64,000 nucleotides of DNA from Oncomelania hupensis. Lineage: Eukaryota > Mollusca > Gastropoda > Littorinimorpha > Pomatiopsidae. The stretch spans positions 59,316,273 through 59,380,272 of the forward strand of contig CM072522.1 in assembly GCA_036898135.1 (NCBI GenBank). Direction: 5' to 3'. The translations under genes were made by a program, and so were the position numbers. The notes under the pieces were generated by a model. It was not told where the DNA came from. It did no database searches and saw nothing but the letters and a program-made list of their open reading frames with translations. Positions 11,201 to 64,000 of the stretch are shown here, in pieces (the first letter of the stretch is position 1; every line of letters begins with the position of its first letter).

Positions 11201-13269
11201 TCAGTTGGTAAGAGCGTCTTGCTAGTAACCGAAAGGTCGCTGGTTCGAATCCCGGATTGGTCAACGTGTGATCATATTATTTTCCCCTTTACCAACAACT
11301 GGCCCGCTGGTGTCAGTATAAATCGGTCCAGTAGTCACCTATATGTGAAAGTGTCGTGTGACTATAATCTACATACAAACAAACAAACAGTAACTACAGC
11401 GTCGTCGGCTTCCAATTATTTCTGACAGTAATGTTGACCTAGATGACCGATGAACCATGATGAAGTCTGCAATGATGATTAACATGAAGGGCGATTTAAG
11501 CGAAAAGGAATGACAATCCTTTCTTTAGCTCTCCGCCCCGTAAGCCTTTGTGGACCACCAGTAGAGTACTTACGATGTTACTTGTTGCTTGTTACTTGTT
11601 GAGATCTCAAAAAAAATCTAAAATGCTGACCCAAATCATGGATTTTTAAACCGTATGAGAACATCTAATCAGGTTCATACATAACACCAACCAACTACAC
11701 GTGCAAACCAAAAACTAATAACGTTATTTGCAACAGAAGAGTGATTAGCTATAAAACAATCCACATCATAGGCTCCCGAAATGAGAAATTAATGCAGGTC
11801 CACGACAGTCTGGTTGTTATTTGCAAATTAATATATCCTCATAATTGTCAGGACTGAGGTAGGTTCTGTTTTTTACTATTATAAAAAAACTCAACACATT
11901 GTTGTTGTAATAATGGTATAATATTAATAATCGATAATATTAATACAAAAAAATACTAAATATTAGTCATTGTTTATAGGGTCCGGCGGACTGCAAAGAG
12001 CCGAATCAAGACCACTTTGATGTTGATGATGATGATGATGATGGTGATAGTGAACACTTTATAGTTAGTATCTTTTGTAAATCTGTGGTTTTCTTTTTTC
12101 AGATTCCAAATGCATGTGCTACACAACTGCTTACTGTCAACTCAACACCACAGTCTTTATTGGTCAAGTTCTCTTCTGCCTCAGTCACTCCCCGCAGTGA
12201 GGTCAGTCTTAAAGATCATGAGTGTAGAAGAGAGACAAAGCAGCAACAGAAGACCGGAGGGCAAAATAAACTTGTGTGTGATGTTTGTAATAAAGCTTTC
12301 TCTCATGCTAGTGATTTGAATAGACATAAGCTTATACATACAGGAGAGAAGAATCATGTGTGTGATGTTTGTAATAAAGCTTTCACTGGTGCTTGGTATT
12401 TGAAGAAACATAAGCTTATACATACAGGAGAGAAGAATCATGTGTGTGATGTTTGTAATAAAGCTTTCACTCGTGCTAGTGATTTGAATAGACATAAACT
12501 CATACATACAGGAGAGAGGAATCATGTGTGTGATGTTTGTAATAAAGCTTTCACTGGTGCTTGCTATTTGAAGAAACATAAGCTTATACATTCAGGAGAG
12601 AGGAATCATGTGTGTGATGTTTGTAATAAAGCTTTCACTTGTGCTGGTGATTTGAAGGTACATAAGCTTATACATACAGGAGAGAAGAATCATGTGTGTG
12701 ATGTTTGTAATAAAGCTTTCACTTGGGCTTGCCATTTGAATAGACATAAGCTTATACATACAGGTGAGAAGAATCATGTGTGTGATGTTTGTAATAAAGC
12801 TTTCACTGGTGATAGCTATTTGAAGTTACATAAGCTTATACATACAGGAGAGAAGAATCATGTGTGTGATGTTTGTAATAAAGCTTTCACTCAGGCTGGC
12901 AGTTTGAAGTTACATAAGCTTTTACATACAGGAGAGAAGAATCACGTGTGTGATGTTTGTAATAAAGCTTTCACTCGGGCTAGAGATTTGAAGAAACATA
13001 AGCTTATACATACAGAAGAGAAGAATCATGTTTGTGATGTTTGTAATAAAGCTTTCACTTGTGCTGGTGATTTGAAGGTACATAAGCTTATACATACAGG
13101 AGAGAAGAATCATGTGTGTGATGTTTGTAATAAAGCTTTCACTTGGGCTTGCCATTTGAATAGACATAAGCTTATACATACAGGTGAGAAGAACCATGTG
13201 TGTGATGTTTGTAATAAAGCTTTCACTGGTGATAGCTATTTGAAGTTACATAAGCTTATACATAAATAA
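5275..13269 (+). CDS. gene A: modular-exon C2H2 zinc-finger protein, 12 fingers, 560 aa
   Basis: The exons are 5275-5380, 6051-6254, 7075-7136, 7252-7315, 7992-8071 and 12103-13269. Every intron is GT-AG and the phases agree (1,1,0,1,0), giving 1683 nt with stop. The start is the first ATG, with an in-frame TGA nine bases upstream. Exon 1 gives MEDEDSPVLSEVKLEIDI. Exon 2 is an acidic Ser/Thr-rich segment. Exons 3-5 are short linkers. The last exon carries a VKFSSA-type spacer and 12 C2H2 fingers with TGEKN linkers. Six psi-K-x-E tetrapeptides precede the fingers (VKLE, IKEE, VKTE, VKSE, VKTE, VKTE). A nuclear DNA-binding regulator is expected. The stop is not original: a LINE inserted in the finger array supplies it (see 13268-14737). 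The gene is probably expressed but shortened; expression cannot be seen from sequence. Confidence 0.8.
7349..7555 (+). repeat. 20-bp minisatellite in gene A intron 4
   Basis: The unit tgtgatgttgttatctatat is repeated about 10 times with very few changes, just after the exon 4 donor. Confidence 0.85.
7620..7930 (+). repeat. old dispersed repeat shared by genes A and B
   Basis: It contains the word accaggagaaaacacttggt, a diverged form of the molluscan-type ggagtacccggagaaaac repeat. A matching copy sits at the equivalent intron position in gene B (about 46110-46460, inverted), so the insertion predates the A/B duplication. Confidence 0.55.
8194..8702 (+). mobile_element. pogo/Tc1-mariner-like MITE, about 509 bp
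   Basis: The ends are CAGTTATACCTTTGGTCCCG and, inverted, CAGTGATACCTCAGG, flanked by TA on both sides (8192-8193 and 8703-8704). TIRs beginning CAGTGATACCTCGG with a TA target duplication are typical of pogo/Tigger-type MITEs. There is no transposase ORF. A second copy lies in the equivalent intron of gene B (45414-45862, inverted). Confidence 0.7.
8776..9210 (+). repeat. 37-bp minisatellite, about 12 copies
   Basis: The unit includes catgtggcacacacaacaaa followed by cacatctatcactgaaa. A 37-bp period cycles through all three frames, which explains several overlapping open frames that are not genes. Located in gene A intron 5. Confidence 0.85.
9303..10827 (+). repeat. 45-bp minisatellite, about 33 copies
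   Basis: The array starts inside a dispersed repeat (ggaggaaaccggagtaccca, cactcggtgacctcaatag) and repeats a 45-bp unit containing gtcaagtagctcagttacat. Because 45 is a multiple of three, a 534-codon frame runs through it with the 15-mer TLGDLNSQVAQLHKL. Nearly all unit variants change the amino acid (D/V, Q/K, A/T, L/H, L/F, K/T), with one clear synonymous change. That argues against a real protein. It sits in gene A intron 5. Confidence 0.85.
11037..11106 (+). repeat. (gat)n microsatellite
   Basis: Imperfect gat/gac triplets. A second (gat)n run lies at 12019-12047 next to a fragment of the 650-bp element (11972-12018, inverted). Confidence 0.8.
11188..11391 (+). mobile_element. tRNA-derived SINE, most complete copy
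   Basis: The head has an A-box-like tagctcagttggtaagagc (11197-11215) and a B box ggttcgaatcccgg (11242-11255). A tRNA-unrelated body follows (ctggcccgctggtgtcagta) and a (caaa)n tail. Related copies are at 18713-18918 and 19089-19196. RNA polymerase III transcription is the family norm; activity here is unknown. Confidence 0.8.
12103..13269 (+). CDS. gene A terminal exon: spacer plus 12 C2H2 fingers
   Basis: The acceptor is cttttttcag at 12093-12102. It reads IPNACATQLLTVNSTPQSLL, one copy of the VKFSSA..SEVSL spacer, then 12 fingers of the form [28 protein letters not shown]. Fingers 10-12 repeat fingers 5-7 exactly at protein level and differ by one base (aat to aac). The frame ends in LHKLIHK, cut mid-linker by the LINE. 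Confidence 0.85.
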   Translation: MPNACATQLLTVNSTPQSLLVKFSSASVTPRSEVSLKDHECRRETKQQQKTGGQNKLVCDVCNKAFSHASDLNRHKLIHTGEKNHVCDVCNKAFTGAWYLKKHKLIHTGEKNHVCDVCNKAFTRASDLNRHKLIHTGERNHVCDVCNKAFTGACYLKKHKLIHSGERNHVCDVCNKAFTCAGDLKVHKLIHTGEKNHVCDVCNKAFTWACHLNRHKLIHTGEKNHVCDVCNKAFTGDSYLKLHKLIHTGEKNHVCDVCNKAFTQAGSLKLHKLLHTGEKNHVCDVCNKAFTRARDLKKHKLIHTEEKNHVCDVCNKAFTCAGDLKVHKLIHTGEKNHVCDVCNKAFTWACHLNRHKLIHTGEKNHVCDVCNKAFTGDSYLKLHKLIHK

Positions 13270-28417: not shown

Positions 28418-31400
28418 CTCAGGCTCCATTGGATTTATATAACTCTCTGCCTTCACCCATACTGTTTTCGTTTCCAATGGCCCACTGCTTTCTGTAACAA
28501 AGAAATCAGCAAACACATCGTGGGTGAGTGCCACAGTGGACGATACAAATGAACAGTTGTTGTCACTCACATCCATACTCCTGTGTGGATCATACCAACT
28601 TGTAATCACTAAAACGTTCACTTCCATGAGAAATGTTCTTGTCACTCCTGGAATTAAACATTTTCTCACTGGCACATAAGGTAAGTTAATTTAGCTCACC
28701 GACTGTAATACACAGAAGTGAGATCTAGAGAAGCAAAACTGTAAATCATTTCAGCTACAATCACAATATAATTTGTATTTTTAAATGACACGCATCACAA
28801 TCAGGACTCCCAATTATGCCGGATTTGGCTAAATCACACCTTAGTCCCTCAAAATCGTGCCTTAGAATTGCTGATCAGGTGTGAGAAGTACGTCTTAAAT
28901 GTTACAATAGGTGCTGAAAACATTCGTGAAAAATCAATCTACGTCATGAGAAGGTCATGAAAGCGTAATCATTTCTGAAATTAGCATGGCTATGTGACAG
29001 AAAAATTAGCTCAATGTTTATTGGTTTATCTTTTGCCCTATCAACCAATCAAAAAAACTAATAAATCATCTCCCTATGCTTAGGAAGTGACGTCATACTT
29101 TGATGTGAGTATGAGGTAGGTTTGTGACACATCGTACACAGTATTTACTTCCCTTGTTCCACTACAAAACCATCTATCATGGGTTTGTCTATGTTGTTTT
29201 TTTAAAAATAATTTGAAACTCTTTAAAATGCTTAACAAGGAGTGAAAAAAAAATCCTCAAAATTGTAAAATGATAGTGATTCCACTCCTTAGATTCATTA
29301 CAAATGGGGAGCCCTGACTATAATACGCTAATGTACTTACCATATTCCTTAGTTTCATAGTCAGGTTCTGTCTTCACCTTAGACAACAGTGGTATATGCG
29401 GCTCCCTCATGTCACTGTCAGGTGCTGTCTTGATTTCTGATTCTTCCTTTATGTTGAACTCACTGTCAGTCACATTAGCGGTACCTCTGACAATCTGTTC
29501 ACTGCTGCTGTGAGAAACATAGTGGCTTTCTCTTCCTGCAATTTCTAAAAAAAAAAACAACAACTTTCATGTGAATAGTTCCTGACAGCAAGCACAGTGA
29601 TAAACTAAAAAGCCATCACATATGAAATCAGCAAATAAATCATGGGCGAGTGCCAACGTGGATGATAAAACTGAACAGTTGTTGTCACTCATATCCATAT
29701 TCCTGTGTGGATCACACTAACTTGTGACCACTAAACATTTGTCACTGACATCCTGTGTGGATCACACCAACTTGTGATCACTAAAGAGTTGTCACTGACT
29801 GGCAAGTAATTGAGCTCACAGCCTGTAATATACTTATTTGAGATCTAGAGAAGCAAAACTGTAAAGCATTTCAGCTACAATCACAATATAGTTTTTTTAA
29901 TACTACAAAAAACAAAAAGAAAACATGAACAGTATTACTATCAGGGTTCTCCATTATGCTGAGATTGGGTATAATCATGCCTTAAGACCCTCAAAATCAT
30001 GCCTTTGAATCGCTGGTCAGGTGTGAGAAATATGTCTTAAATGTTACAATTGGTGCAGAAAACATGCCTGACAAAACAATCTACAGGGTGAAATGATCGT
30101 GAATGCATAACATTTATAAAATTAACATGGCCATGCGACTGAAAACTTATCTCGATGTTCATTGGTTTATCTTTAGCACTATCAACCAATCCCGAAGCTC
30201 CTAAATCATGTTCATTGGTTTATCTTTAGCACTATCAACCAATCCCAAAGCTCCTAAATCATGTTCATTGGTTTATCTTTAGCACTATCAACCAATCCCA
30301 AAGCTCCTAAATCATCTCGCTACGCTTAGGAAGTGTCTTCATAGTTTGCTGTGATGTAGGTTTGTGATGCATCATGAGCCGTGGTTACTTCCATTGTTTC
30401 ACTACAAAACTATCAATCATCGCGTTCTTCCATTGGCTTTTTCCCACTCCTTAAAATGCTTAACAAGTAGAGAAAAAATCCTTTAAATTATAAAATGAAA
30501 GTGATTCCAGTTCTTAGATTCACAGCAAATGGGGAGCCCTGACTATAATACGCTTACCATATTCCTCAGTGTCACAGTGTGGTTCTGTCTTCACTTTACA
30601 CAACAGTGGGATATGTGGCTCCATCATGTCAATGTCAGGTGTTGTCTTCACTTTACACAACAGTGGGATATGTGGCTCCATCACGTCACTGTCAGGTGCT
30701 GTCTTGCTTTCTGATTCTCCCTTTATGTTGAACTCACTGCCAGTCATGTTAGCAGTACCTCTGACAATCTGTTCACTGCTGCTGTGAAAAACATGATGGC
30801 TTTCTCTTCCTGCAATTTCTAAACAAAACAACAGCTTTCATGTGAATATTTCCTGACAACAAGCATAATGACGAACTCAAAAACCATCACAAAAGAATGT
30901 ATCTTTTCCTCTCACCTAAATATTACAGATGACACAGTAAATAAACCTCCAAAGTGCAATCAAGGATGAACAAAGTACTGGTCTATTTCACGATTTCCAA
31001 TTAAAACAAATCCTGCAGAAACAACGTTGCCGTAGTTAAGATCAGCACCCAACATTCACTGCACAGTCCACACAAAAGGTCAGGAAAAAAACAAACTATT
31101 TTGTTGGTGTTAGGGTGTGGGTGTACTAAACCTGACACTTATTTTAATACGTTTCTGTGATACCATTCTTCAAGGAGCGCAGATGTTAACACTTGCCACC
31201 ACTTTGTGACATCTCAAATGAAAACAACAAAAAAATTACATTGTAGTAAAATACATTTTAAAAAAATGATGAGGCATTCATGAGTGTAAATGGCACTACC
31301 AGAAAAATTACTACTTGTGTAGAAGAAAAAGACCTGGGGGTGACGTTTGATACAGGATTAAAATTTGATGTGCATATTCAAAATGCTATAAGTAAAGCTA

Positions 31401-34658: not shown

Positions 34659-36203
34659 TCAAACACATGAATTATTTTGTTCAGAATGTGTCAACTTGTG
34701 TTTCTTCAAAGTGCCTACCAAAGTGAAAGCTTTACCACAAACATCACACACGTGATTTTTTTCTCCTGTATGTGTAAGCTTATGTAACTTCAAATCGCTA
34801 GCTCGAGTAAAAGTTTTATTACAAACATCACACACATGATTTTTCGTTCCTGTATGTATAAGCTTATGTACCTTCAAATTGGCAGCACGAGCAAATGCTT
34901 TATTACAAACGTCACACACATGACTTCTCTCTCCTGTATGTGAAAGTTTATGCCTCGTCAACTTGGTACCATCTGCAAATGCTTTATTACAAACGTCACA
35001 TACATGACTTCTCTCTCCTGTATGTGAAAGCTTATGCCTTCTCAAATTGCTAGCATCAGTAAATGCTTTATTACAAACACCACACACATGATTTTTTTCT
35101 CCTGTATGTAACAACTTGTGTGTCTTCAAATTTCCTGCCTGAGTAAAAGCTTTATTACAAAACTCACACACATGGTTTTTCTGTCCTGTATGTGTAAGCT
35201 GATGTACCTTCAAGACATCAGCCTTAGTGAAAGCTTGATTACAGACATCACAAACATGTTTTCCTTCTCCCGTATGTGAAACATAATGTAACTTCAAGTA
35301 CTTTGCCAAAGCAAAACCTTTCTTACAAATCTTACACCAATGGTTTTTATTTCCTCTATGAGTACGCTTATGTACGTTCAAACTGCTAGCCCCAGTGAAA
35401 GCTTTATTAGCAACATCACACACATGATTTCTATCTTTTGTATGTGAAAGCCTATGTCTCCTCAAATTGCAATTCTGAGTAAATACTTTATTACAAACAT
35501 CACACACATGTTTCTTTTGTTCCCAAGTCTTCTGTTGCTGTTCTGTCTTTTTTCTTTTCTTCTGATCTCCGAGACTGACTTCACCAAAAGGAATGCCTAA
35601 GGCAGAAGAGAACTTGACAGATGATGACTGTGGTGTTGTGGAGTTGACAGTCTTTGTTCTTTTCTCATGATGTCTGAGACTGACTTCACTAAGAGTATTG
35701 TCTAAGGCAGAAGAAAACTTGACAGATCGCTGTGGTGTTGTGGAGTTGACAGTCTTTATTCTTTTCTCACGATGTCTGAGACTGACTTCACTGAGAGGAT
35801 TGCTTAAGGCAGAAGAGAACTTGACAGATGATGACTGTGGTGTTGTGGAGTTGACAGTCTTTGTTCTTTTCTCAAGATGTATGAGACTGACTTCACTGAG
35901 AGGATTGCTTAAGGCAGAAGAGAACTTGACAGATGATGACTGTGGTGTTGTGGAGTTGACAGTCTTTGTTCTTTTCTCAAGATGTCTGAGACTGACTTCA
36001 CTGAGAGGATTGCTTAAGGCAGAAGAGAACTTGACAGATGATGACTGTGGTGTTGTGGAGTTGACAGTCTTTGTTCTTTTCTCAAGATGTCTGAGACTGA
36101 CTTCACTGAGAGAAGTGCCTAAGGCAGAAGAAAACTTGACAGATGACGACTTTGGTGTTGTGGAGTTGACAGCAAGCAGTTGTGTAGCGCATGCAGTTGG
36201 ATC
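34659..36203 (-). CDS. gene B terminal exon: six spacer repeats plus 10 C2H2 fingers
   Basis: The acceptor is tttttacag, read on minus. It opens DPTACATQLLAVNSTTPKSS. A 35-residue unit (VNSTTPQSSSVKFSSAL, then SEVSLRHLEKRTKT) is repeated six times, where gene A has one. Ten fingers follow. Finger 2 has lost its second zinc Cys (CDVANKAF) and finger 3 is divergent (CKICKKGFALAKYLKLH). It ends LTHSEQNNSCV and stop. Confidence 0.85.
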   Translation of the reverse strand, partial: DPTACATQLLAVNSTTPKSSSVKFSSALGTSLSEVSLRHLEKRTKTVNSTTPQSSSVKFSSALSNPLSEVSLRHLEKRTKTVNSTTPQSSSVKFSSALSNPLSEVSLIHLEKRTKTVNSTTPQSSSVKFSSALSNPLSEVSLRHREKRIKTVNSTTPQRSVKFSSALDNTLSEVSLRHHEKRTKTVNSTTPQSSSVKFSSALGIPFGEVSLGDQKKRKKTEQQQKTWEQKKHVCDVCNKVFTQNCNLRRHRLSHTKDRNHVCDVANKAFTGASSLNVHKRTHRGNKNHWCKICKKGFALAKYLKLHYVSHTGEGKHVCDVCNQAFTKADVLKVHQLTHTGQKNHVCEFCNKAFTQAGNLKTHKLLHTGEKNHVCGVCNKAFTDASNLRRHKLSHTGERSHVCDVCNKAFADGTKLTRHKLSHTGERSHVCDVCNKAFARAANLKVHKLIHTGTKNHVCDVCNKTFTRASDLKLHKLTHTGEKNHVCDVCGKAFTLVGTLKKHKLTHSEQNNSCV

Positions 36204-39200
36204 CTGTAAAAACAAGACTTACAATAAAAACTGACTATAAAGTGTTCACAGATATAGATAAAACAAACAGGAGTGTGGAGGGAGGGAACTGAATTAGTTC
36301 CTACTTCATCAATAAGAAAATGAGACTGAAGTCAGATTACAGTAAGAAAAGTGTTGAACATTTACAATTCCTGAATTAACAGTGTTACATGATTTATAAT
36401 AGTCGATACAGCTCTGATGCTTGAATCTTGATATGTGTAACTCAAATACGTTTATCCACGCCTACTGTTCACTCAGCAACAAGGCATGATTTGTCATATA
36501 AAGTTTTCCAACATTATTCAGCAAACACCAACATCACAGAAGATCGCTTTATGAAAATCACTACTCGCAAGCAAAGAATGCATTACTTATATAGTCTCTC
36601 AACAATTCAGAGAAACTTCGGACAGTCCAGAATGATGCAATAACACCTAATCAAATTAAAACTCGTCACCAGAACAACGCACCATCTTACGTCATAGAAC
36701 ATTATACAGTTTACAAGCTATCGCCAGACAGATATGGAAATTCGATCAAATAATAAAAAAGTAAATCCAGAAAGTTATCAACAATACTTCAACAATATCG
36801 ATCAATGAAAATTATCAACTTTATGCAAAGCATTTACTACCAACAGTGCAGAATCAAATTAAAGGTAAAGACATGCCATCCTCACATGCTTTGCAAAATA
36901 AAATGTTGGGAACTATCATACGTGTCTTAATCGTAGAATTATAGCATAGTAGTGATGGCATGTAGGCTATCAGCCTGTTGCCCTCTAGGTAAACATGAAG
37001 ACAAGTTCCATTATTACCTCAGACTCCACCGAGAGTATATCAATGCATCTCTCTGTCTGCACCCACACCATCTTTGTTTCTAAAGGGTCAGTGCTTTCTG
37101 TAACAAAGAAATCAGCATATGTATCAGGGATGAGTGGGTGATAGCAGTAGCACTGTTAGGTCTGGGGTTTTCTAAGGATGCAGAGGTTGAACTGTTGTGA
37201 CCAAGTGTTTTGTATGAGTGGGTGATAGCAGTAGCACTGTTAGGTCTAGTGTTTTGTAAGGATGCAGAGGTTGAACTGTTGTGACCAAGTGTTTTCTATG
37301 AGTGGGTGATAGCAGTAGCACTGTTAGGTCTCGTGTTTTGTAAGGATGCAGAGGTTGAACTGTTGTGACCAAGTGTTTTGTATGATTGGGTGATAGCAGT
37401 AGCACTGTTAGGTCTAGTGTTTTGTAAGGATGCAGAGGTTGAACTGTTGTGACCAAGTGTTTTCTATGAGTGGGTGATAGCAGTAGCACTGTTAGGTCTA
37501 GTGTTTTGTAAGGATGCAGAGGTTGAACTGTTGTGACCAAGTGTTTTCTATGAGTGGGTGATAGCAGTAGCACTGTTAGGTCTGGGGTGTTGTAAGGATG
37601 CAGAGGTTGAACTGTTGTGACAAGAAGTGTTTTCTATGAGTGGGTGATAGCAGAAGCACTGTTAGGTCTAGTGTTTTGTAAGGATGCAGAGGTTGAACTG
37701 TTGTGACAAGAAGTGTTTTCTATGATTGGGTGATAGCAATAGCACTGTTAGGTCTAGTGTTTTGTAAGGATGCAGAGGTTGAACTGTTGTGACAAGAAGT
37801 GTTTTCTATGAGTGGGTGATAGCAGTAGCACTGTTAGGTCTAGTGTTTTGTAAGGATGCAGAGGTTGAACTGTTGTGACAAGAAGTGTTTTCTATGAGTG
37901 GGTGATAGCAGTAGCACTGTTAGGTCTGGGGTTTTGTAAGGATGCAGAGGTTGAACTGTTGTGACAAGAAGTGTTTTCTATGAGTGGGTGATAGCAGTAG
38001 CACTGTTAGGTCTAGTGTTTTGTAAGGATGCAGAGGTTGAACTGTTGTGACAAGAAGTGTTTTCTATGAGTGGGTGATAGCAGTAGCACTGTTAGGTCTG
38101 GGGTTTTGTAAAGATGCAGAGGATGAACTGTTGTGACCAGTGTTACCATGGCTACTTCACTTTCCTCCCTTCCTTCCACACCAGCTCACTTCCTACATCA
38201 GCACTTTTTCCTGCCTCCACCTTTCACTTGCTGCGGGCTATTTATAGCTTGCCTGCACCCTCCTTCCAGTGAAAGGAAGCATCGGCGAAGCTATTTATAG
38301 CTAGCCTGGCTGACCTAAACTCAAAATGAGTTTGACCAACCAAGATGGCGCCGGCATATGGCGACACGGTGTGGCGGCAGCTGATTGTTGCTGTGTTTGT
38401 GTGGGCTGTGTTGTGTGTAGGGACTGAAAGTGTTGTTGTATATAGCCGTAAGGACCTACTAAACATTCTTGCCACATCCAATTGTGAGTACATGCCACAT
38501 TTTCTCTACACATCGGAGGATTTTATTGCCTCCGAGTCGAACAGTTCAAAATGGCGTACCGGCGAAGCAAAGCACACGCGCACGACACGAAAACGGGGTA
38601 GCCGCGGTGGTGTCTTGGTTCGCTTTCGTCGACGCGCCCACCGCCCTTCTCTCCCTGCGGTCGTTCTTGCCAACGTACGATCCCTCAACAACAAGACTGA
38701 TGAACTTTTTAATCTGCTTACTTTTAATCGGGAATTTCGGGACTCTTCTGTTGTGTGTTTGACTGAGACATGGCTGAAACAAGACAAGCCTGACGCAGTG
38801 GTTACTCCCCCTGGTTTTACGATATGCAGAGCAGACCGTGTGCCTGTGCAGTCAGAGAAGGAGGATGGTGGTGGTGTTTGTTTCATGGTAAACAACCGCT
38901 GGTGCACGGACACAAAAGTATTCTCTCAGTCGTGCTCTCCCTTCCTTGAACATCTGACTATCAACTGCAGACCATTCTACTCCCCTCGTGAATTTTCCTC
39001 CTGCATTCTCATCGCTGTGTATATACCATCCGGCGCCAACGCTACTGCTGCAATCAGTGAACTGACTAGGCATGTTGTTGCTGCCGAGTCTGCCTTTCCT
39101 GATAGTTCTATCATCATACTCGGCGACTTCAACCAAACGAACCTGCATAAGACTTTGCCTCGGTACTATCAGCATGTGCACTGCCCCACTAGAGGAGAGA

Positions 39201-45896: not shown

Positions 45897-48800
45897 TAAT
45901 TTTTTTAAATTATTGGATTACTGTACCACATAGTTATTGTGTTAAAAATTTGTAAAGAAAACGTCAAGTTCAATTATTACCTCAGATTCCATTGGAAGTA
46001 TATCTAGGAATCTCTCTGTCTTCACCCACACCATCTTTGTTTCCAATGGGTCAGTGCTTTCTGTAACAAAGAAATCAGCAAATGTATCATGGGTGATAGT
46101 AGTTGCACTGTTGGTTAGGACTCTGGTTTTCTATGTCAAAGTTTGAGAGTTCAAACCCTGCAGATGAACTTCTATGACTTAGAATATACAAGACTTTTCA
46201 GGTCACCTAGTGTTTTCTCCTGGTATTTTGGTTTTGTCCCTCCCTATATAATAATGGTGTCCCAGTTAATAATAAGGCACATTTTGCATCCATTCATTTC
46301 TTTACTTTTTAATCATAAAACAAAAGAACAGTTTTTAATCACTCAAGACTGAATTACTATGGGGTTCACACCATAAAAAATTCCCACCCATAATAAATGT
46401 TCCTGTCCTATGAATGTAACATAGCTCAGAGCCTATTCTACATTTTAGGTCTAGAAAGTTTAAACTGTACGACAGCAAGGTCACAATTGCAATATCGGTA
46501 ACAACATGACAATTCTTGCTAAGTATAAAACACTAGTATACTTACTGTATCCCTCTGTCTCACTGTCAGGCTCTGTCTTAACTTTACACAACTCTGAGTC
46601 ATGTGGCTCCTGAAATTAATTATGAGCATGTATTAGTTTACAACAACTATCAGTACATTTGGATTGCTGTACCACACAGTTCACATGTTGAAGATTTGTG
46701 TAAGAGACATCAAGCTCGATTATTACCTCAAGCTCCATTGGATGTACCTCAATATATTTCTCTGTCTTCACCCAGACTGTTTTCGTTTCCAATGGCCCAC
46801 TGCTTTCTGTAACAAAGAAATCAGCAAACACATCATGGGTGAGTGCCATAGTGGATGATAAAACTGAACAGTTGTTGTCACTCACATCCATAGTCCTGTG
46901 TGGATCACACCAACTTGGAACCACTAAAACGTTCACTTCCATGAAAAATGTTCATGACAATTTTTGGAATTGTTCACTGGCACAAAAGGCAAGTTATTTA
47001 GCTCACAGCCTGTTCTATACTTAAGCGAGATCTAGAGAAGCAAAACTGTAAAGCCAGGGTTCATACAGATTTACCACACTGACTCAACCAAAGCTCTTTA
47101 GTTTTGAGGTTAGGTCAGCCAGGCTAGCTATAAATAGCTTCACCGATGCTTTTTTTCCATTCCTTTCACTGGAAGCAAGGGTGGAGGCAAGCTTAAAAAA
47201 AGGCCGACAGCCAGCAAAATGTGGAGGCACTAAACAGGCAGCTGTCCACTCCCGCTGACTTCCCCTTCTTCAGCGATTGCACTGCTGCTTTAACTTCTCT
47301 GAGAATTGGGAGGATTTCTTCTTCTTCTCTGGGGACATGCTAGAACTGATAAGTCTCCGTTTGGTGTGTGATTGTAAAGGTCAGAGCAGAACTCTGTCCA
47401 TCTATCCAAAACTTATTCTTCTGTAAGTTACAAGCCTGACTTGCTTTGGATAGTGGAGGCTTTGGGCTGTTTTTCACCCCTCTAGGCCTCTTCACAACAA
47501 AAAAAACAAAACAAAAAAAAGACAATCATTATTATAATATACTAAAATACTTACCATATTCCTCAGTGTCACAGTCAGGTTCTGCCTTCACTTTACACAA
47601 CAGTGGGACATGCGGCTCCATCATGTCACTGTCAGGTGCTGTCTTGCTTTCTGTTTCTTCGTTTGTGTTGAACTCACTGCCAACCATATTAGTGGTTCCT
47701 CTAACAATCTGTTCACTGCTGCTGTGGGAAACATAATGGCTTTCTCTTTCTGCAATTTCTAAACAGAACAACCGCTTTGATGTGAATGTTACCTAACATC
47801 AAACATAGTGATGAACTGAAAAGCCATCATGTAAGACTTTATATATTTTTCTCGCACCTAAATATTAGAAGTGACAGTAAATAAAGTTATAAACTTCCAA
47901 AGTGCAATCATGGATGAACAAAGTACTGGTCTAGTTCACGATTTCCATTTAAAACAAATGCAAAAACAACTTTGTCATCAACGCCAAGTACTCACAGTCC
48001 GCATACAAGGATAGAAAAAACCAACAACTACTAATTGTTAGTGTTAGGGTGTGGGTGTGCTAAGTGCTATAACGTATAAGCTGTAATAATTCAATTTTCT
48101 TGTTTAAGAAACTGTCAATACAGGAATACAGCAAAGTGCAGGTTTGAACACATATGAGCTTAATACTACAATTAAACTCCTTACAATCTATGCAATCTTT
48201 GTGTTGTGTAAAACTATATACAGTGTGACAGTCAAGTCAATGTTTTGTATTTGCATCCCTCCCCCCCTCCCGCTCTATCCTCCCCCTCTTCCCTGCCCTA
48301 TGTCTTTACCCTGTAGCTGATTCCTCTTCACTATCCTTCCCTGCCCTATGTCTTTACCCTGTAGCTGATTCCTCTTTACTATCCTTCCCTGCCCTATGTC
48401 TTTACCCTGTAGCTGATTCCTCTTCACTATCTTTCCATTTCTAATCATCCAGTCATGTTCCCCTGTGTCTTCCTTTTTCTGTTCAAGCTGTTCTTTCAGT
48501 TCTCTATGCTTTTGTCTATGTTTTGGAGTGAAGTCTTGATTAAAGAAAACCCTCTTGTTATGTTCAACCCCTTTGTTCAAGTTGAAGGAACATCTCAAAA
48601 TGCTTGATTTTGCTGCCTCATTTTTAACTTTAAATTTTAACAGGCATTACCTGCCAGGAGCGTTTGAGCGCAGATGGCCTTATTCTACAAGAGTCTCATC
48701 AGCAAGACTTGAATCCATCTTCGTTATTATGCTTTTAATTTCAGCCTGATCAGATCATCTTTCAACTGATTTTATTCGCCCTACTTGTCGCTTTCTAACA

Positions 48801-54300: not shown

Positions 54301-55707
54301 ATAATGCTTTTTGTTCTTGTGCAGGGGCGGATCTTGTTCTTGTGCCACTTGTGCACGTGCACACCCCCCTGGCGGTCAAAAAAAGAAAAAGAAAAGGAGA
54401 AGAAAGAAGAGAAAAAAATTACTAATTCTCACTCACCACACAGTTTCTTGTACCTCCAAATTAGTTGCTTTTTTTTTTTTTTTTTTTTTTGTGTGACCAA
54501 ACTTGTACATGCATCAGGTCAGTTTTGAATAAAACTGATGTGAGTGGCTATTTCTTGTTTTATTTGCAGTAACTTTGTCTTTGTATAAGCCTTTATGCAA
54601 GATGTTCTGCTATTGTAAATTTTATCATCAGAGTTTGCAGAGGGGTGTTTGTGTGTGTGGGGGGGGGGAGGGGGGACTAAACTTAAAGAGGACTTTTAGC
54701 ACAAAACAATACTATTTTCAGTCCTTAAAATAATGCCCAAAATGCACCAGATTGCACAGATTTTAACCATTATTTTCAAATTTAAAATAGGGACCCCCCC
54801 CCCCCCCCCCTAGTACGCCTACGAGGTAGAGTTATCGTTCGTGAATTAGGACTGGCTTCGCACGAACTGCACAATGGTAAAGAAGCGCTCAGTCAGATCA
54901 GCAGATAGATCGACAGTAGTTTTCGGTTCCTTTTGTCCTCAAACACACACACACAAAAAGAACTGGAAGAACTGACAAGAAACCAAAAGTAGCAATGATG
55001 AGTAGGCCTACTCGTCGAATTAATTTGATGCCAGAGGCAGAGGCAATGAAACGGTATTCCGAAAATAAAATAACAAGTTAAACCATAGGCACTAGCTACA
55101 TACGAAAGAATTAGTTCAGAAATACATTGGAAATACAGATTTGATGAATAACAAAGTGTCTCCTATTCGTCTAGGATTGTAATTAAACCAAAGAGGGGTT
55201 GTATGTGGGCAGGCGAGCTTGTGTTTTGACTTCACTTGCTTCTTGATGTTTGTTGTTCATTTGTTTACTAACCTCCACATTCACCAATTCTTATTGTATT
55301 AAAATATGTAATTTATATTTCGATTTTAAAAATTCTTATGTATGGTTTTGAGTACCGGTTGTTTTTTTTAAACTACTATTACAAACATATATATTTATAC
55401 TATTTTGTAATTGTATCATTGTGTAGTGCTTTTATTTTTAAATATTTTTTTAATCATTGCTTCATTATGACTGTATTCTTAACGTTGGTGTCTTTGTTAT
55501 GTGGTGTGTGTGTGTGTTTGCATGTGTGTAGTATGCTTTTTATACTTAGAGGAGATGATGCTCGTTATTATTTTGTGTGATGTCCAACATGTTTATATGT
55601 CATAATGTTTAAATACTGTATATAATTTTTATGTGCGATATTTATTCTTGTGAATGTGTGTATATGTGTGCGCGCTTAGACCAGACTTTGGTTTTGCATT
55701 TTAGAAA

Positions 55708-58700: not shown

Positions 58701-61066
58701 TGTTCACATGAGCAGACGGCATCAAAACTCCAAAATAGACCATACAAACACTTCCGATTTCTGCTCCTGGAAAAGTGCGTGTCCTGCCAATGTTGATGCA
58801 TGATCTGAAGCGTTTCTTGACCATAATGTAGTCTATTTGGTTGTGATGCTCCCCGCCAGGACTGTGCCATGTCCATCGTCTGGAGTTTTTGTGGAGACCA
58901 AGCGTGTTTGCCAGTACCAGATTGTTATATCTGGCAAACTCCAAGAGTCTCAGACCCCTGTCATTTGTCTCGTTGTTGCAGTGGGGTCCACATGTGTCTC
59001 CCCAGTTGTGGTGCGCATCTTGGCCAACCTTGGCATTCCAGTCGCCTTGCACTATGACTATGTCCTTCTTCGGCACTTGGTCAAAGGCCGCCTGTAGATT
59101 TTCATAAAAATCCTCCACTTCGCTGTCGTCATAGTCTGATGTTGGGGCATAGGCCTGGATGATGGTGATGTTGAAAGGAGCTGCTCTCAGGCGGATGGTA
59201 ATGAGTCTACTGGAGACTGGGCGGCAACCCATGACAGTGGCTAGAATGTTCTTGTGGACCAAGAATCCAACGCCGTGTTCGTGCCTGTCATCTCTACCGC
59301 TGAAATAGAGCTTGTGGCCTTTGTCGGTCGTTGTTACCTAGGCCTTTCCAGCGCAGTTCGCTGATGCCTAGAACGTTCCATCGATAGTGGTCCAACTCGT
59401 GGGCCAGTTTTTCTAATTTTCTTTCCGCAGTTAGGGTCCTGACATTCCAGGTTCCTATGACGATGTTGTTTCTCGTGCAGATCTTGCTAAATTGTCCATC
59501 AGTAGCATACTTAACACCTCCGTCCTGGTGGCCAACGGAAGGCGAGGTCCTTGTGCCGGGCGACGACCGATCCGGAATGGAATTATTGGATTGTGTCATC
59601 ATGTAGTGTGTCTTGGGCAAAAAAGACCTGGCGGTGCCCAATCCAAAGCCACAGCCGAAATCCACGAATACAGTGTGGCTCGCCTTGGCCCTGAGCACAT
59701 GGTCGTTGAACCTGTAGTAACGTGAGGTTCCTCCGCCCTGGCCGCTGACTTCTGTGTAGAAGACTTTCGCCCAGTGATGCCGTGCTAACATCACCCCTGT
59801 TAGTCGCCTCTTACGACACGCCGGGAAACGTTGGGTCTATTCTATTTAATGCCCGAACCCACAGAGCAAGTGGTGAAGAAACGGAAACTCCGATGGTATG
59901 GCCACGTCACCAGATCATCAGGCCTTGCAAAGACTATTCTGCAAGGCACAGTGCAAGGAGGTAGAAGAAGAGGGAGACTGAAAAAGAGGTGGGAGGACAA
60001 CATTCGAGAATGGACTGGTTTGACACTGAGCGAAGCCATCAGGGCTGCTGAGGACAGAGAAAGATGGAGTATGCTGGTTAAACGATCATCTGTGGTGCCC
60101 CTACGACCTTCGGGTTACGGGACAGGATAGGATAGGATAGGATTATTATTTAAAACGCCTAATCTGACAGCTATAAGCGTGTACAATAGATACAATAACA
60201 CATGTGCACAGAAAGTAAAATAATTGTAACAATGACAATGATAATGATGATATAAAGACCTACAGGCCTTGGAAAGCCCAAATGTCATTGTATCTCCCAA
60301 GGTTAATACTATATATATGATTAAGTTTTTGTTATGAATCATGTCACACAGGGTGCGTTTTGGACACACTAGACTAGGCATGTGAATGTGTTAGTTGTAT
60401 AGACTGCTTGTGCTGGTAATGTAGTGCAGTGATTTTGTATTTCTCATAGTGTAACATCCTCAATATTAATTATTATTTGTTTTTAAATTTAACTATTTTA
60501 GTATTTAGTAAGAATGATAAATAATAATAATAATAATAATAATTTTAACTATTTTAGTATTTAGCCCAATAATTCTAACTTTTGTATTGGTTGGCATAAA
60601 CAGGCTTTTACCCACTGAACAGTACATTTAATAAATAATAAAACAAAAACACACACAAACTGTGACATACATGTTTGTTATGTGTCTGTGTGTTGATGAC
60701 ATGTGTGTGTGTGTATGTTCACTCGCAATACCTAAATGAAAAATGCCTGCCTATATATATACCCCTGGTAACTGGGGTATTTTCATAGTGAGACTGACTT
60801 CTTCCTAATGTGAACTTCTTAACGGGTGTCTTTGTGACTACCCATGCAGTACATTTGGACTGCACTTAGTGTAGTCTATGCATTCAGGGCCAAACCTCCT
60901 CTGATGAGATATTTGGTAAAGATCGAAACGCGTCAGGAGAACCAGGCTTTATGAATGCAATTCTACTGCTTATTGAGCTCTTTTAGCTCATTAAAGAAGC
61001 ACATGGAATTGAAAGTCACTATGTCTCACTTTTGTCCACCTTTGAGAGCAGGATAATTATATTTCT

Positions 61067-61151
<85 letters not shown>

Positions 61152-63089
61152 GGAGAGAGAGAGAGAGTGGAGAGAGAGAGATAGAGAGAGATGTGTGAGT
61201 GCATGTTATCATTACTTTATTAAATGTAAGGTTGAGGAGGTAAAAACTACATTTGTATATATAGAGAGAGTACATTTTTTTCCCTTTCTTCTTTCATCGT
61301 GTTTGTCTTTTCTTACATTCTTTTAGTTTACTCTGCCTTGTCTTTACAAATTACAGCCTTTTAAATGTAAGGCTCAGGGTGTAAAACATGTTTATAACTT
61401 TATACCAACCATTACAAAAGTTAGAATCACGGGCTAAATATTTTAAACAAATAATAATTAATACTGATGATGTTACACTTGAAAAGCACAACTCAAAACA
61501 GTTAACTTCATGCACTGCACTAAATTACAACACAAGCAGTGAACACACGAAATAGTCTTGAGTCTAAACTACTAACACATTCACATGCCTAGTCTAGTCA
61601 CTAGTTTTGAGCCTAAACTGCTAACACTTTCACATGCCGCAGTCTAGTGTCATGGTGTGTCCAAAACGTATTCTGTGTAACATGATTCATAGCAAAAAAA
61701 TTTATCTTGGCAGATACAATGACATCTGGGCTTCCATGAGGCATGCAGATCTGTATATCATGCACACAGCCTGTGACAAAGAGCTTGGAGGCATCAAATT
61801 TGATGCATACTATTCATTGATACACTAGGCTTCTGCGTTGTTACGGGTCAGAGTCCTAATTCAAGGGCAATAATTCTAATGTACTTTTTATGTCAACGAA
61901 GACCATAGAGGTGCAACTCTAGGCTATTACTAAAAGTATGTTTTCGAAAATTAGTACGGCTATGCTTAATAAGTAATATGTTAACAGAGTTTCTTGTTGT
62001 ATCAAATTTGTTTAATTCAAAAAATTTGTTAGTATCTAATTCATCAATGTTATTTAAAATTGTATAAGCTTGTATTAGGTCTCCTCTCACTCTTCTGGCT
62101 TTTAGGCTTGGCAGACATAATGATTCCAGTCTGTCTCTGTAAGAAATATCTTTCAGTCCTGGAACCATTTTAGTTGCTTGTCTTTGTACACGCTCAATAG
62201 CAGCGGACTGTCTCTTTAATAAAGAGTACCAAATAATATTGCCATATTCTAGAAGAGGTCTAACCAAGAACTTGTAAAGTTGTACAAATGATGATCTATC
62301 TAGATACAAAAAACATCGCTGTATAATTCCGAGAGTTTTATTTGCCTTATTAATTACTTCACTAATGTGACAGTCAAAAGTTAACATGGAGTCAAATGTT
62401 ATTCCTAAATCTTTTTCGCTATCACATTTAGTCACTAATACCTGCCTGTACCTTGTTCACAGTCATGTAATAATCATTTTGGTGGTTGTTTTTGCCTATG
62501 TGAAGGACCTTACATTTGGTAGTATTAAAATATAGTTACCAGGTTTCTGTCCATTTCTGTAGTTCATTTATATCATTTTGTATAATCTGACTATCTTTTG
62601 AAAAACAATATAATCTTGTGTCGTCTGCAAATATTTTACATGAACTTTGCACAGATTCTGGCAAGTCATTAATAAAAAGTATGAACAGTATTGGTCCAAG
62701 AATGCTACCTTGAGGAATACCGCTGAAAACTTGTTTTTTTATAGAATATTCATTACCAACTCTAACTTTTTGTGTCCGGTCTGTCAAAAAATTTCTTATC
62801 CACTGTATGATACTTAGGTACGAGACTATTGAGGTCACCGAGGGTTTTCTCCGGGCACTCCGATTTCCTCCCTCCCTTCACTAATGGTACATGATGCAGT
62901 CAATATAAAAAATTCAAAAATTAAAATTCGATTTTCTTCCGTCTTCTAATAGCGATCTCCCTGCCTTTACACCACCTGTTTGAGTGATGTATGTGTATTT
63001 GGTGTGTGTGAGGGTAAATGAGACAAGTGTGTATGTTGGTATACATCGCCGTGCTTTGAGCCTTGGGGAAAGGCATGTACATAGCATCC

Positions 63090-63132
<43 letters not shown>

Positions 63133-64000
63133 GGTTTACCATGCCCACACCCTAACAATTTGTAGTAGTTGTTTTTTCTGACCTTTTCTGTGGACTGTGC
63201 AGTGAATGAGTACAGGGCGTTGATCTTAACTATGACAAAGTTGTTTTTGCATTGTTTGTTTTAAATGGGCCTCAGGAAATAGACCAGTACTTTGTTCATC
63301 CTTGATTGCACTTTGCTTTGGAAGTTTATTTACTGTGTCACCTGTAATATTTAGGAGAGAGGAAAAGATATAAAGTTTATACATGATGGCTTTTCAGTTC
63401 ATCACTATGTTTGCTTTCCGGTAATACATGTAGTCACATCAAAGCGGGTGTTCTGTTTAGAAATTGCAGAAAGTGAAAGCGTTCATGTTTCCCACAGCAG
63501 CAGTGAACAGATTGTCAGAGGAACCACTAATAGGACTGGCAGTGAGTTCAACATAAAGGAAGAAACAGAAAGCAAGACTGCACCTGACAGTGACATAATG
63601 GAGTCACATATCCCGCTGTTGTGTAAAGTGAAGACAGAACCTAACTGTGACTCTGAGGAAGATGGTAAGTATATTAGTGTATTATAGTAATTATTATCAT
63701 GTTTGTTACTATATTGTGATTGTAGCTGAAGTGCTTCACGGTTTTGTTTCTCTAGATTTTACTTGTATAGAACAGGCTGTGAGCTAATAACTTGCCTTAT
63801 GTGTCAGTGAATGCGTTTTCAATTCCAGAAGTGACAAGAACATTTTTTTAAATGGAAGTCAATGTTTTGTTGGTTTGAAGTTGGTGTGATCCACACAGGA
63901 ATATGGATGTGAGTGACAACAACTGTTTAGTTTTATCATCCACTCTGGCACTCATCCATGATTTGTTTGCTGATTTCTTTGTTACAGAAAGCAGTGGGTC
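51335..64000 (+). CDS. gene D: modular zinc-finger family member, 5' exons, runs off the window
   Basis: Exons are 51335-51437, 63461-63664 and 63988-64000 (cut by the window end). Donors and acceptors are gtgagt-like gtgag, tgtttag/gtaagt and gttacag. Exon 1 reads MEDDDNAMLSEVKLEIDI and is one codon shorter than its paralogues. Exon 2 has FNIKEE and CKVKTEPNCD. Exon 3 starts as the GPLETK-type module. Intron 1 is 12 kb against 670 bp in gene A, all the excess being inserted elements. Finger exons must lie beyond 64000 if present. Confidence 0.7.
51498..53728 (-). mobile_element. CR1-like LINE, 5'-truncated, in gene D intron 1
   Basis: The minus strand encodes the linker (53713-53183, HEGLNVNECWDKIKRMLKE) and then RT (53207-51609): [40 protein letters not shown], and C-terminal VVTPWNDLTAEAVDAGSLNA. 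A one-base frameshift separates the two frames near 53200. The tail is (catag)n at 51498-51519. GCAAAT flanks both ends. Gene A intron 1 (5660-5680) shows the empty target (ggtggcaaatttgttaacat). Confidence 0.85.
53799..53910 (+). mobile_element. tRNA-related SINE head
   Basis: A cloverleaf-like segment: A box tggcgcagtggataagtcg, T arm gcgggttcaattcccgc (53848-53864). The acceptor strands are imperfect. Downstream text (gcatgggtgccgcctttccg) is unrelated to tRNA. It resembles an arginine tRNA head but is unlikely to be a working tRNA. Confidence 0.55.
53911..55700. other. low-complexity sequence, no gene recognised
   Basis: It contains poly-T (54470-54490), poly-G (54656-54676) and poly-C (54796-54812) runs and an A-rich (aaagaaa)n stretch near 54378. 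Confidence 0.4.
55829..56205 (+). pseudogene. decayed LINE RNase H domain
   Basis: Plus-strand frames together give KIFTDGSVLENG (first catalytic Asp), KLRAELMSLNK (catalytic Glu), a SVLEALNSNNKKERKE helix, and GFHFNDWAD with ARNWAVH. This is the order of an RNase H fold. Many stops and frameshifts interrupt it. No RT is adjacent; an (att)n run precedes it (55709-55745). Confidence 0.5.
56437..58494 (-). CDS. RTE reverse transcriptase frame, 685 aa (disrupted upstream)
   Basis: Open from 58494 to the inversion point, where it runs into (att)n sequence. It holds the complete RT palm with FADD and most of the thumb. Upstream, a duplicated 25-bp word (ctgatctgaagcgtttcttg region) brackets about 350 bp of filler (58480-58830). 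Another frameshift near 59280 breaks the endonuclease, so the element is dead. Its C-terminal 90 codons lie at 59866-60130 on plus. Confidence 0.75.
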   Translation of the reverse strand: MVYSFIPMVKKRFRSSINTGRMRTFLGAGIRSDHDFMMMSSRHHLKRVNTAKCTRRKFDLDKLQDPEVAELFQATIGGKFAPLLILGTGEVDVNTMTTTFNSAVTDAATEILGKHRPKKKPWITPELLDLCDKRREMKKKKNTSQGADVYRKINNDIRKGMRTAKENWIEDQCHEIENSLNKNDSKKAYQTVKRLTSVKQPKVSTIQSKCGICLTEEQEVLDRWTEYCSDLYNHTPNGDPSVLACPENREEEEILPILREEVEAAVQALKKGKSAGVDNIPAELLQAGGEAMIDALTIICNKIWQSGEWPIPWTQSLVITLPKKGNLQECENYRTISLISHPSKVLLKIILNRLKPQAEQIIAEEQAGFRAGQSTTEQIFNLRIICEKYLQHQQHLYHVFIDFKKAFDRVWHAALWATMKVYNISPKIIEVIKSLYDKATSAVLHNSAIGNWFRTTIGVSQGCLLSPTLFNIFLERIMSDALADHEGTVSIGGRAISNLRFADDIDGLAGEEQELEQLVQRLDTTSRAYGMEISAEKTKVMTNNTNGINTDIKVQGQSLNTVHSFKYLGAIVSDNWSRQEVLSRIAQTTASLTRLKPIWKDRTISLHSKVRLLRSLVISIFLYACEAWTLTADLQRRIQSMEMRCYRRLLGISYTQHITNDEVRQTITQAIGQHDDLLTVVKKRK
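56437..60141. mobile_element. RTE-type LINE inserted by twin priming (5' part inverted)
   Basis: The 5' part runs on minus (about 59856 to 56437): endonuclease (GTWNVRTLTAERKLEKLAHE, QGDWNAKVG, NQIDYIMVKKRF) and RT (VFIDFKKAFDRVWH, GVSQGCLLSPTLFNIF, FADDIDGLAGE), ending at VVKKRK. The 3' part runs on plus (59866-60141): VKKRKLRWYGHVTRSSGLAK to the stop and a (ggata)n tail. The parts meet at the same element position, sharing gtggtgaagaaacggaa. ATTATTATTT flanks both ends (56433-56442, 60142-60151). Confidence 0.85.
60246..60420 (-). repeat. left arm of a long inverted repeat
   Basis: Read inverted it matches 61565-61790: acacattcacatgcctagtc, gtgtccaaaacg, acatgattcata, agatacaatgacat and tgggctt. 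The arms are about 1.1 kb apart and flank the hammerhead region. Confidence 0.65.
60745..61060 (+). mobile_element. Penelope-like or retrozyme-type fragment carrying a hammerhead
   Basis: Non-coding text around the ribozyme, from ctggtaactggggtattttc to the AT microsatellite. Minimal type I hammerheads are known mainly from terminal repeats of Penelope-like elements and from retrozymes. No RT or GIY-YIG frame is seen here, so the element is partial or non-autonomous. Boundaries are approximate. Confidence 0.5.
60879..60959 (+). ncRNA. type I hammerhead ribozyme
   Basis: Core CTGATGA (60901-60907) and GAAA (60925-60928). Stem II is G60908 to C60924 (GATATTT, loop GGT, AAAGATC, one A-G mismatch). 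Stem III is minimal: A60928-C60929 pairs with G60932-T60933 around a two-base loop. The cleavage triplet GTC ends at 60934. Stem I is CTCCT (60896-60900) with AGGAG (60935-60939), extended after an internal loop by TGCATTCA (60879-60886) with TGAATGCA (60952-60959). All invariant core bases are present, so self-cleavage after C60934 is predicted. Confidence 0.85.
61069..61146 (+). repeat. (ta)n microsatellite
   Basis: About 39 TA units, followed by (ga)n at 61154-61190. Confidence 0.95.
61565..61790 (+). repeat. right arm of a long inverted repeat
   Basis: Partner of 60246-60420. Its start is locally duplicated (taaactactaacacattcac and taaactgctaacactttcac). Confidence 0.65.
61880..62838 (-). 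pseudogene. CR1-like LINE fragment in gene D intron 1
   Basis: Minus-strand frames 62838-62536 (FLTDRTQKVRVGNEYS, SGIPQGSILGPILFILF, KIFADDTRLY) and 62435-61893 (EKDLGITFDSMLTFDCHI, LVRPLLEYGNIIWY) cover RT from motif 4 to the C-terminus, with a frameshift and stops near 62450-62540. Related to 31265-32059. Confidence 0.8.
62819..63133 (-). repeat. dispersed repeat with ccggagaaaaccctcggtga, ending in (att)n
   Basis: It reads, inverted, the same core as the sequence that seeds the 45-bp minisatellite at 9303. It ends in tattaat-type (att)n at 63089-63132, after which gene D intron sequence (cccacaccctaac) resumes. Confidence 0.6.

Follow-up and report, generated by a model that had tools for sequence, protein, structure and literature searches.

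Features of the locus

The window analysed here is a stretch of 64,000 nucleotides from the genome of the snail Oncomelania hupensis (contig CM072522.1, positions 59,316,273 to 59,380,272 of the forward strand). Near its right-hand end lies a type I hammerhead motif within a partial copy of a non-coding repeat unit. Unit positions are numbered from U1, the first base 3' of the cleavage site. They refer to a 446-bp unit of locus L162, which was used as blastn query on the window locus (L180). The features are:

60879..60959, + strand: type I hammerhead with extended stem I (sequence, descriptor, covariance model R1 at 22.5 bits)
60896..60900, + strand: 5' strand of the inner stem I, CTCCT, pairing with 60935-60939
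60901..60907, + strand: CTGATGA core, which by its letters agrees with the core of PMC3088659
60908..60924, + strand: stem II and GGT loop; A60911 lies opposite G60921, where the main family sequence has C-G
60925..60934, + strand: GAAA, palindromic ACGCGT (stem III) and C17 (letters, dimer evaluation); predicted cut after 60934
60935..60939, + strand: 3' strand of the inner stem I, AGGAG, pairing with 60896-60900
60763..61068, + strand: 5'-truncated partial retrozyme unit, U275-446 followed by U1-133 (blastn of the L162 unit)
61069..61145, no strand: (TA)n tract at the 3' junction (window letters), a type of flank found at 45 of 63 outward ends
60752..60761, no strand: short TA stretch on the 5' side of the insertion (letters), possibly the other half of the target

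The surroundings are rich in repeats. Reverse transcriptase was the only Pfam domain found over ten nearby frames, and the LINE proteins of the window have relatives in Pycnogonum, Petrolisthes, Amphiura and Lamellibrachia. Duplicated gene segments occur at 5713-6274, 30541-31149, 47490-48054 and 63116-63731, with further segments at 6771-7085, 28481-28770, 46796-47054 and 63684-63998. They adjoin C2H2 zinc-finger ORFs at 12085-13269 and 34659-36215, and a zinc-finger protein query returned nothing at E ≤ 0.001. At the right edge, a gene segment occupies 63355-63684 and resumes from 63822 onward, with homology to the other copies from ~63116. A 534-aa frame at 9303-10907 consists of the tandem repeat LNSQVAQLHKLTLGD, and its Pfam matches are probably artefacts of the repetition. 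A tRNA-like neighbour was rejected, as ARAGORN reports only a tRNA-Arg at 53800.

The window copy is flanked by inverted arms (~60266-60625 and ~61399-61761) that are ~75-95% alike in pieces. These arms had no match at E 1e-10 in the other compared loci (L154-L179). We therefore rejected a foldback element and regard the arms as belonging to the site of insertion itself, probably a fold-back repeat that was already there when the copy was inserted.

A type I hammerhead above chance

The type I hammerhead that had been recognised from the sequence alone is confirmed, with all letters in place. The criteria for type I, i.e., the core letters and three base pairs, were taken from PMC3088659. The window motif has the exact core C3 U4 G5 A6 N7 G8 A9 and G12 A13 A14 A15 U16 H17, and the pairs 10.1-11.1, 1.1-2.1 and 15.1-16.1 are present. 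Stem II is formed by GATATTT and AAAGATC (60908-60914/60918-60924), with a single A.G mismatch at A60911. It is followed by GAAA (60925-60928), by ACGCGT (60928-60933), which shares its first A with GAAA, and by C17 (60934). An outer helix, TGCATTCA/TGAATGCA (60879-60886/60952-60959), extends stem I; in such flanks an 8-bp helix by itself is not very rare (582 of 20,000 random placements).

Descriptor, fold and covariance model all place the motif above chance. A relaxed structural descriptor matched once in the window and 32 times in 2527 dinucleotide shuffles of the window. The fold has a z-score of -3.41, and none of 200 shuffles was equally stable. In a scan of the window with covariance model R1, which was built from 14 unrelated phage type I hammerheads and gives rough E-values only, the motif came top at 22.5 bits (E 2.3e-5). 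The runner-up, at 54529, reached 12.2 bits and lacks GAAA.

The phage hammerheads came from IMG/VR viral contigs matching CTGATGAGTC-N4-14-GACGAAAC, in at least 120 stretches. By descriptor, 94 of the 130 matches in these stretches fit type I and 24 fit type III, with at least one (L121) fitting both. The phage type I motifs have the same core as the window motif; they differ in their longer stem III and unrelated context. Four viral contigs (L139, L140, L050 and L120) carry 3-5 type I motifs each, some hundreds to 2000 bases apart. As a negative control, we took the pattern CTGATGA-N10-30-GAAACGCGTC in 32 viral stretches, none of which had at least four pairs in both stem I and stem II. On the shuffled windows, this control and the R1 score, we rejected a chance motif.

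The sequence-only reading had proposed the Rfam hammerhead model as a check, and here the outcome was negative. Rfam gave no hammerhead match at the window motif at the gathering threshold, nor at E ≤ 10 in 241 nt around it; R1 is the model that does match. The silence at gathering carries little weight, because Rfam at this threshold also missed the hammerhead in all 10 phage type I loci tried, which are others than the four contigs with several motifs. At E ≤ 10, however, Rfam named a hammerhead family in 4 of 4 of these loci. Hence, the window motif fits the Rfam models more poorly than the phage motifs do, which counts mildly against it.

A retrozyme family with a 446-bp unit

The hammerhead belongs to a large family. 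The family hammerhead 34-mer has 277 exact copies in the 1.45 Gb genome, and 377 copies when the 17 stem II positions are left free; the controls, a reversed sequence in the first case, gave 0 each time. The exact family core did not occur in the prokaryote collection. In a search of the snail's own genome that scored the best 40 of 939 candidates, 41 matches were obtained, 40 of them with 99-100% identity across all 121 bases.

Tandem copies, which a genome search had been predicted to find, are indeed present. Six successive units in L162 measure 446, 437, 446, 446, 446 and 446 bp, and 26 of the 34 same-strand neighbour pairs within 3 kb are exactly 446 apart among the 100 places listed. These 100 places (contigs C1-C4) form 51 loci, of which 28 hold a single exact copy. 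The median segment identity to the L162 unit is 98.3% (124 segments). The unit has a GC content of 39% and no ORF: the longest frames from ATG have 18 codons on the sense strand and 39 on the opposite strand.

Our results thus show 446-bp tandem repeats with a type I hammerhead (L162, L175 and others), GC below 50%, no coding region and many copies, as expected of a metazoan non-LTR retrozyme. The retrozymes of coral, mussel and axolotl described in PMC7229834 likewise combine a type I hammerhead, GC below 50%, many copies and no LTR, and form non-coding tandem repeats with units of a few hundred bp, in their case 150-450. They differ in that the RNAs reported there are ~170-400 nt, against a unit of 446 bp here. 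Any target site duplication would be masked by the (TA)n flanks. On these sequence features, we assign the family with good confidence to the non-autonomous metazoan non-LTR retrozymes, with a non-coding unit of 446 bp.

The 446-bp periodicity and the high segment identity might also be explained by satellite DNA that spread through rolling circles at the DNA level and recombination, in which case the hammerhead would be a passenger. This explanation is at odds with the dispersal over 51 loci, 28 with one exact copy each, and with the fixed 3' and variable 5' ends described below, which are marks of reverse transcription. We consider a satellite origin very unlikely, and the family is discussed as a retrozyme in what follows.

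The window copy

The window holds a single partial unit, one-sided and truncated at its 5' end. Blastn on L180 aligned U275-446 and U1-140, the final bases being TA; TTCTTG ends at U133, and in the window it is followed directly by TATATA. No second copy of 60763-61068 was found by blastn of 60000-62000, and tandem hammerhead copies were not seen elsewhere in the window.

The window hammerhead is also a variant. In 20 fetched loci, 51 hammerheads matched a core pattern, to which this set is restricted. A single 81-nt sequence accounts for 44 of these, and the remaining seven, with the window motif among them, are variants that occur once each. A60911 stands where the family has the C of a C-G pair, a stem II mutation that is shared by none of the other motifs in the set; among the matches listed with stem II left free, the same A occurs together with one further change at C2:87277254. 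Because the copy starts at U275 and bears this mutation, a reading as a complete functional unit is unsupported. The suggestion of a retrozyme-like, non-autonomous unit holds for the family with its 446-bp non-coding unit, but the window copy is only part of one.

The sequence-only reading placed the motif in the first intron of a 'gene D'. A domesticated intronic ribozyme that regulates this neighbouring gene of zinc-finger type might be envisaged, since the motif lies on the same strand as the gene segment at 63355-63684 and conserved intronic type I hammerheads are described in amniotes (PMC6155905). However, homology among the paralogous segments begins only at ~63116, and the sequence upstream of the hammerhead gave no recognisable exon, which leaves the intronic position unsupported. 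Moreover, the motif is not a single conserved intronic copy of the amniote type but a member of a family of hundreds of copies, and in the window it carries a damaging mutation. Domestication is therefore extremely improbable, and we regard the window motif as part of a retrozyme insertion.

Stem III, folding and dimers

The monomer has no stable stem III. It can form either an A-U and a C-G pair over a 2-nt loop, or an A-U pair over CGCG. The helix had been described as a stem of two pairs; it is indeed weak, and ACGCGT is palindromic, but two pairs would imply a loop of 2 nt. The palindrome may make better sense in a dimer, where it would form a stem III of 6 bp. The proposed resemblance to dimeric hammerheads is borne out by both properties, the weak stem and the palindrome.

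Similar designs are known from other animals. The minimal type I hammerheads of Penelope-like elements (PLEs) and Terminons, as presented in PMC7761336, also combine a very short stem III with possible activity as dimers and with dispersal in non-coding DNA. In contrast, the window motif lies in a retrozyme unit, with a stem II of seven positions and a long extended stem I. In the account of PMC7229834, HHR_Amex1 of the newt and axolotl satellite hammerheads has a helix III of one pair with a palindromic tetraloop cap. Those satellite hammerheads are reported to be more active as dimers; their units are 330-350 bp and their hosts vertebrates, and we liken them by description (PMC7229834).

Nearest-neighbour energies, which exclude tertiary contacts, differ strongly between the window copy and the family copy. 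The probability of the pair that closes stem II is 0.0004 in the window copy versus 0.62 in the family copy; for comparison, the 93 phage type I motifs, preselected for a GTC/GAC stem II, have a median of 0.977. Relative to the MFE, the ribozyme fold costs 7.5 kcal/mol in the window copy and 1.4 kcal/mol in the family copy (-25.3 versus -26.7 kcal/mol). In the family copy, a dimer hammerhead formed through ACGCGT is more stable than two monomers (-58.5 versus -53.4 kcal/mol), whereas in the window copy it is less stable (-45.7 versus -52.8 kcal/mol). An alternative pairing of two copies is lower still, at -63.8 kcal/mol for the family and -56.8 kcal/mol for the window. The window ribozyme is probably weak owing to A60911.

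Compensatory change, one of the proposed checks on the hammerhead, is weakly represented: stem II contains one two-sided change, in which a U-A pair is replaced by C-G in seven exact copies. This comparison used 21 distinct rows, drawn from the window and roughly the first 100 of the 377 places. Since column shuffles reached the same count in 410 of 500 cases, we make no claim of covariation.

Insertion anatomy

The ends of the insertions were read in 40 loci, i.e., the 20 top matches of the own-genome search, including the window, and 20 from the 34-mer list on C1-C3. The loci were picked for a hammerhead similar or identical to that of the family and contain no copies without one, so that statistics on 5' ends are biased. 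They yielded 39 clusters; L183, in which no cluster exceeded 180 aligned bases, was dropped. Both orientations occur in 24 clusters, with minus followed by plus, which is a head-to-head arrangement; nine clusters are minus only and six plus only. Likewise, where neighbours among the 100 places listed lie on opposite strands within 3 kb of each other, they are head-to-head in 15 of 15 cases.

The outward 3' ends concentrate in two zones. Of 63 such ends, 28 lie at U128-141 and 28 at U226-240, together 56 of 63, and seven elsewhere. The zone limits were chosen after looking at the data, and probabilities attached to them are therefore merely illustrative. At typical 3' junctions, TTCTTG or TTCTT gives way to TATATA, or ATTTTATA does, and the interval between the two positions (~U133 and ~U234) is 101 nt. 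At least 80% of the steps are TA/AT in 45 of the 63 outward flanks, against 12 of 12,791 45-mers in the window and 416 of 19,656 45-mers drawn at random from these loci with their tails.

Both ends lie in the zones in 18 of the 24 head-to-head clusters, and 17 of these 18 have one end of each kind; in the exception, L178, both ends are of the same kind. The other six have one end out of zone. An end in L172 runs into N, and L168 resembles site A with an internal deletion. At the joint the two arms overlap by 1-20 nt in 16 of the 24 clusters, abut in one and leave a gap in seven.

The 5' ends are variable. The cut site has no 5' end within 5 nt on either side (0 of 63), and the copies run across it. 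Hence, the templates would mostly have been continuous at this site, either as circles or as uncut multimers. In 13 of 63 cases the 5' end lies in U266-290, beside the GC-rich CCCTGGTAACTGGGG. The window copy starts here too, and this sequence could form a hairpin, a possible stop for reverse transcription.

Two loci, L187 and L188, have identical junctions and an additional internal block, and probably represent one insertion that was later duplicated. In L185 (2239-2325), the plus arm ends at U445, within one base of the cut site and next to a non-TA neighbour. In this single case, reverse transcription perhaps started at a cut RNA end.

Could LINEs have produced these insertions? The window has many frames for reverse transcriptase of the LINE type, and the end of a LINE at 60121-60144 bears a short simple-repeat tail. 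Target-primed reverse transcription with twin priming, which in LINEs yields an inverted 5' part, would give a retrozyme with a microsatellite tail and an inverted 5' portion. Yet, our clusters have outward 3' ends on both sides, most of them at one of two fixed points inside the unit and with one of each in 17 of 18, and both arms may be multi-unit (L161). Such marks are published for PLEs (described in PMC3846280 and PMC11167929). Mobilisation by a LINE is thus unlikely, although less so than a satellite origin.

Earlier work already describes retrozymes, hammerheads of PLEs, and minimal type I hammerheads dispersed through the non-coding DNA of animals (reviewed in PMC7761336). On our reading of the junctions, the new part would be a pair of fixed 3' ends, usually one on each side, in head-to-head copies at (TA)n. 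Open-access literature, covered mostly short of full-text depth, yielded no description of this anatomy for retrozymes. Head-to-head arms with two fixed (TA)n ends are apparently undescribed in PMC7229834 too, since its main text does not use the words inverted, tail or AT-rich.

Penelope-like elements

The published insertions of PLEs offer a close parallel. In the Pen families of Adineta vaga, as documented in PMC3846280, PLE insertions comprise inverted copies, mostly head-to-head; one inverted pLTR may carry a tail, the joint shows microhomology and the targets are AT-rich. An inverted, mostly head-to-head layout and a tail on one side are shared by Poseidon PAc of Anolis (PMC11167929). 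The Anolis protein, in purified form, cuts both strands of the DNA, extends each of them and prefers AT-rich DNA; reverse transcription starts internally, downstream of the hammerhead, at two RNA sites, and the interval between them corresponds to the tail (PMC11167929). The retrozyme insertions bear a similar signature of PLE machinery, namely inverted head-to-head copies, a one-sided tail and an AT-rich target, and share the microhomology joints.

There are differences as well. A PLE has an ORF with reverse transcriptase and GIY-YIG endonuclease, whereas the retrozyme unit has no ORF. The published PLE tail is 30-40 bp, whereas the interval in the retrozyme is 101 nt. For the Anolis PLE, top and bottom strands showed no difference in where reverse transcription starts (PMC11167929), whereas the two retrozyme ends differ in 17 of 18 clusters. 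Furthermore, the start in the Anolis PLE is non-homologous to the cut DNA (PMC11167929), whereas the retrozyme joints contain TA-like letters.

The snail has PLE-like elements of its own. A GIY-YIG search of the genome gave 11 matches, two of which lie within open frames of 793 and 850 aa. With 95% identity over 3.1 kb, these two loci belong to one family, and they were labelled PLE-like from the C-terminal GIY-YIG domain, the frame of ~800 aa and the inverted or tandem end repeats. Both copies have inverted repeats, and their outward end CTGGGTTGATNATATACTAA stands at (TA)n, which spans 122 bp (after TTT) in one and 142 bp (directly adjoining) in the other. Pfam found GIY-YIG only in both frames, and reverse transcriptase in neither; the ORF has no relative of solved structure at E ≤ 1. 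A YRDDG stretch was noticed by eye only. No hammerhead was found in the 4.2, 4.4, 0.8 and 1.8 kb searched in the two copies, which have no convincing similarity to the retrozyme unit. At L202 3649-4378, the Penelope-like copy has tandem repeats of ~266 bp downstream of its ORF.

The link to Penelope that had been drawn from the hammerhead thus survives in part: the insertions carry marks like those of PLEs, but no adjacent Penelope reverse transcriptase stands behind it. From these marks and the analogy with published PLEs, copying of the retrozyme by a PLE appears the best-supported inference, in which we have moderate confidence.

A proposed mechanism

We consider it likely that the family is a non-autonomous retrozyme that is processed by its hammerhead, circularised, and copied by the endonuclease-reverse transcriptase of a PLE at (TA)n from both ends. 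Transcripts of the arrays would be cut by the hammerhead, either as a dimer through the ACGCGT palindrome or, in intact copies, as a monomer. A host ligase would close the monomers into circles. The PLE enzyme would then break a (TA)n microsatellite, and both broken ends would prime reverse transcription within the RNA, at ~U133 on one side and ~U234 on the other. It might travel around the template more than once, and the two cDNAs would join head-to-head at short microhomologies. The window copy would be a one-sided, 5'-truncated product of this process, starting at U275 with its 3' end at ~U133. The (TA)n could also have grown at the priming site, instead of being a pre-existing target.

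An alternative that overlaps with this mechanism, and differs in the template alone, is that uncut multimeric transcripts are copied and the ribozyme is irrelevant to insertion. It would agree with the passage of copies through the cut site and the lack of 5' ends there, which circles fit equally well, and with the Anolis PLE, where hammerhead mutants had no effect on insertion in vitro (PMC11167929). However, uncut templates leave the retention of the hammerhead unexplained, though a sample of copies chosen for having one gives no measure of how well it is retained. We regard this as a real possibility, more credible than copying by a LINE but less likely than copying of processed circles.

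A more general proposal starts from the processed, PLE-copied retrozyme. Animal retrozymes may be copied by Penelope-like machinery in a two-sided manner, with a break in (TA)n, starts at ~U133 and ~U234 on the same RNA circle or on two, reverse transcription around the circles, and head-to-head joining. Two starts, one per broken end, would then be the rule and not a variation. We put this forward tentatively, with less confidence than the mechanism for the snail family and slightly more than the model of uncut templates.

For the window itself the outcome is modest, namely one damaged copy. For retrozymes in general, a 2020 review (PMC7761336) states that the metazoan repeats have no conserved motif that reveals their autonomous partner. 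PLEs were proposed as the partner because they co-exist with retrozymes, are also tandem and also contain type I hammerheads (as argued in PMC7229834). The insertion ends described above form a motif of this kind. The question of who copies retrozymes thereby becomes testable, with an RNA of 446 nt, two predicted starts of reverse transcription and a defined target.
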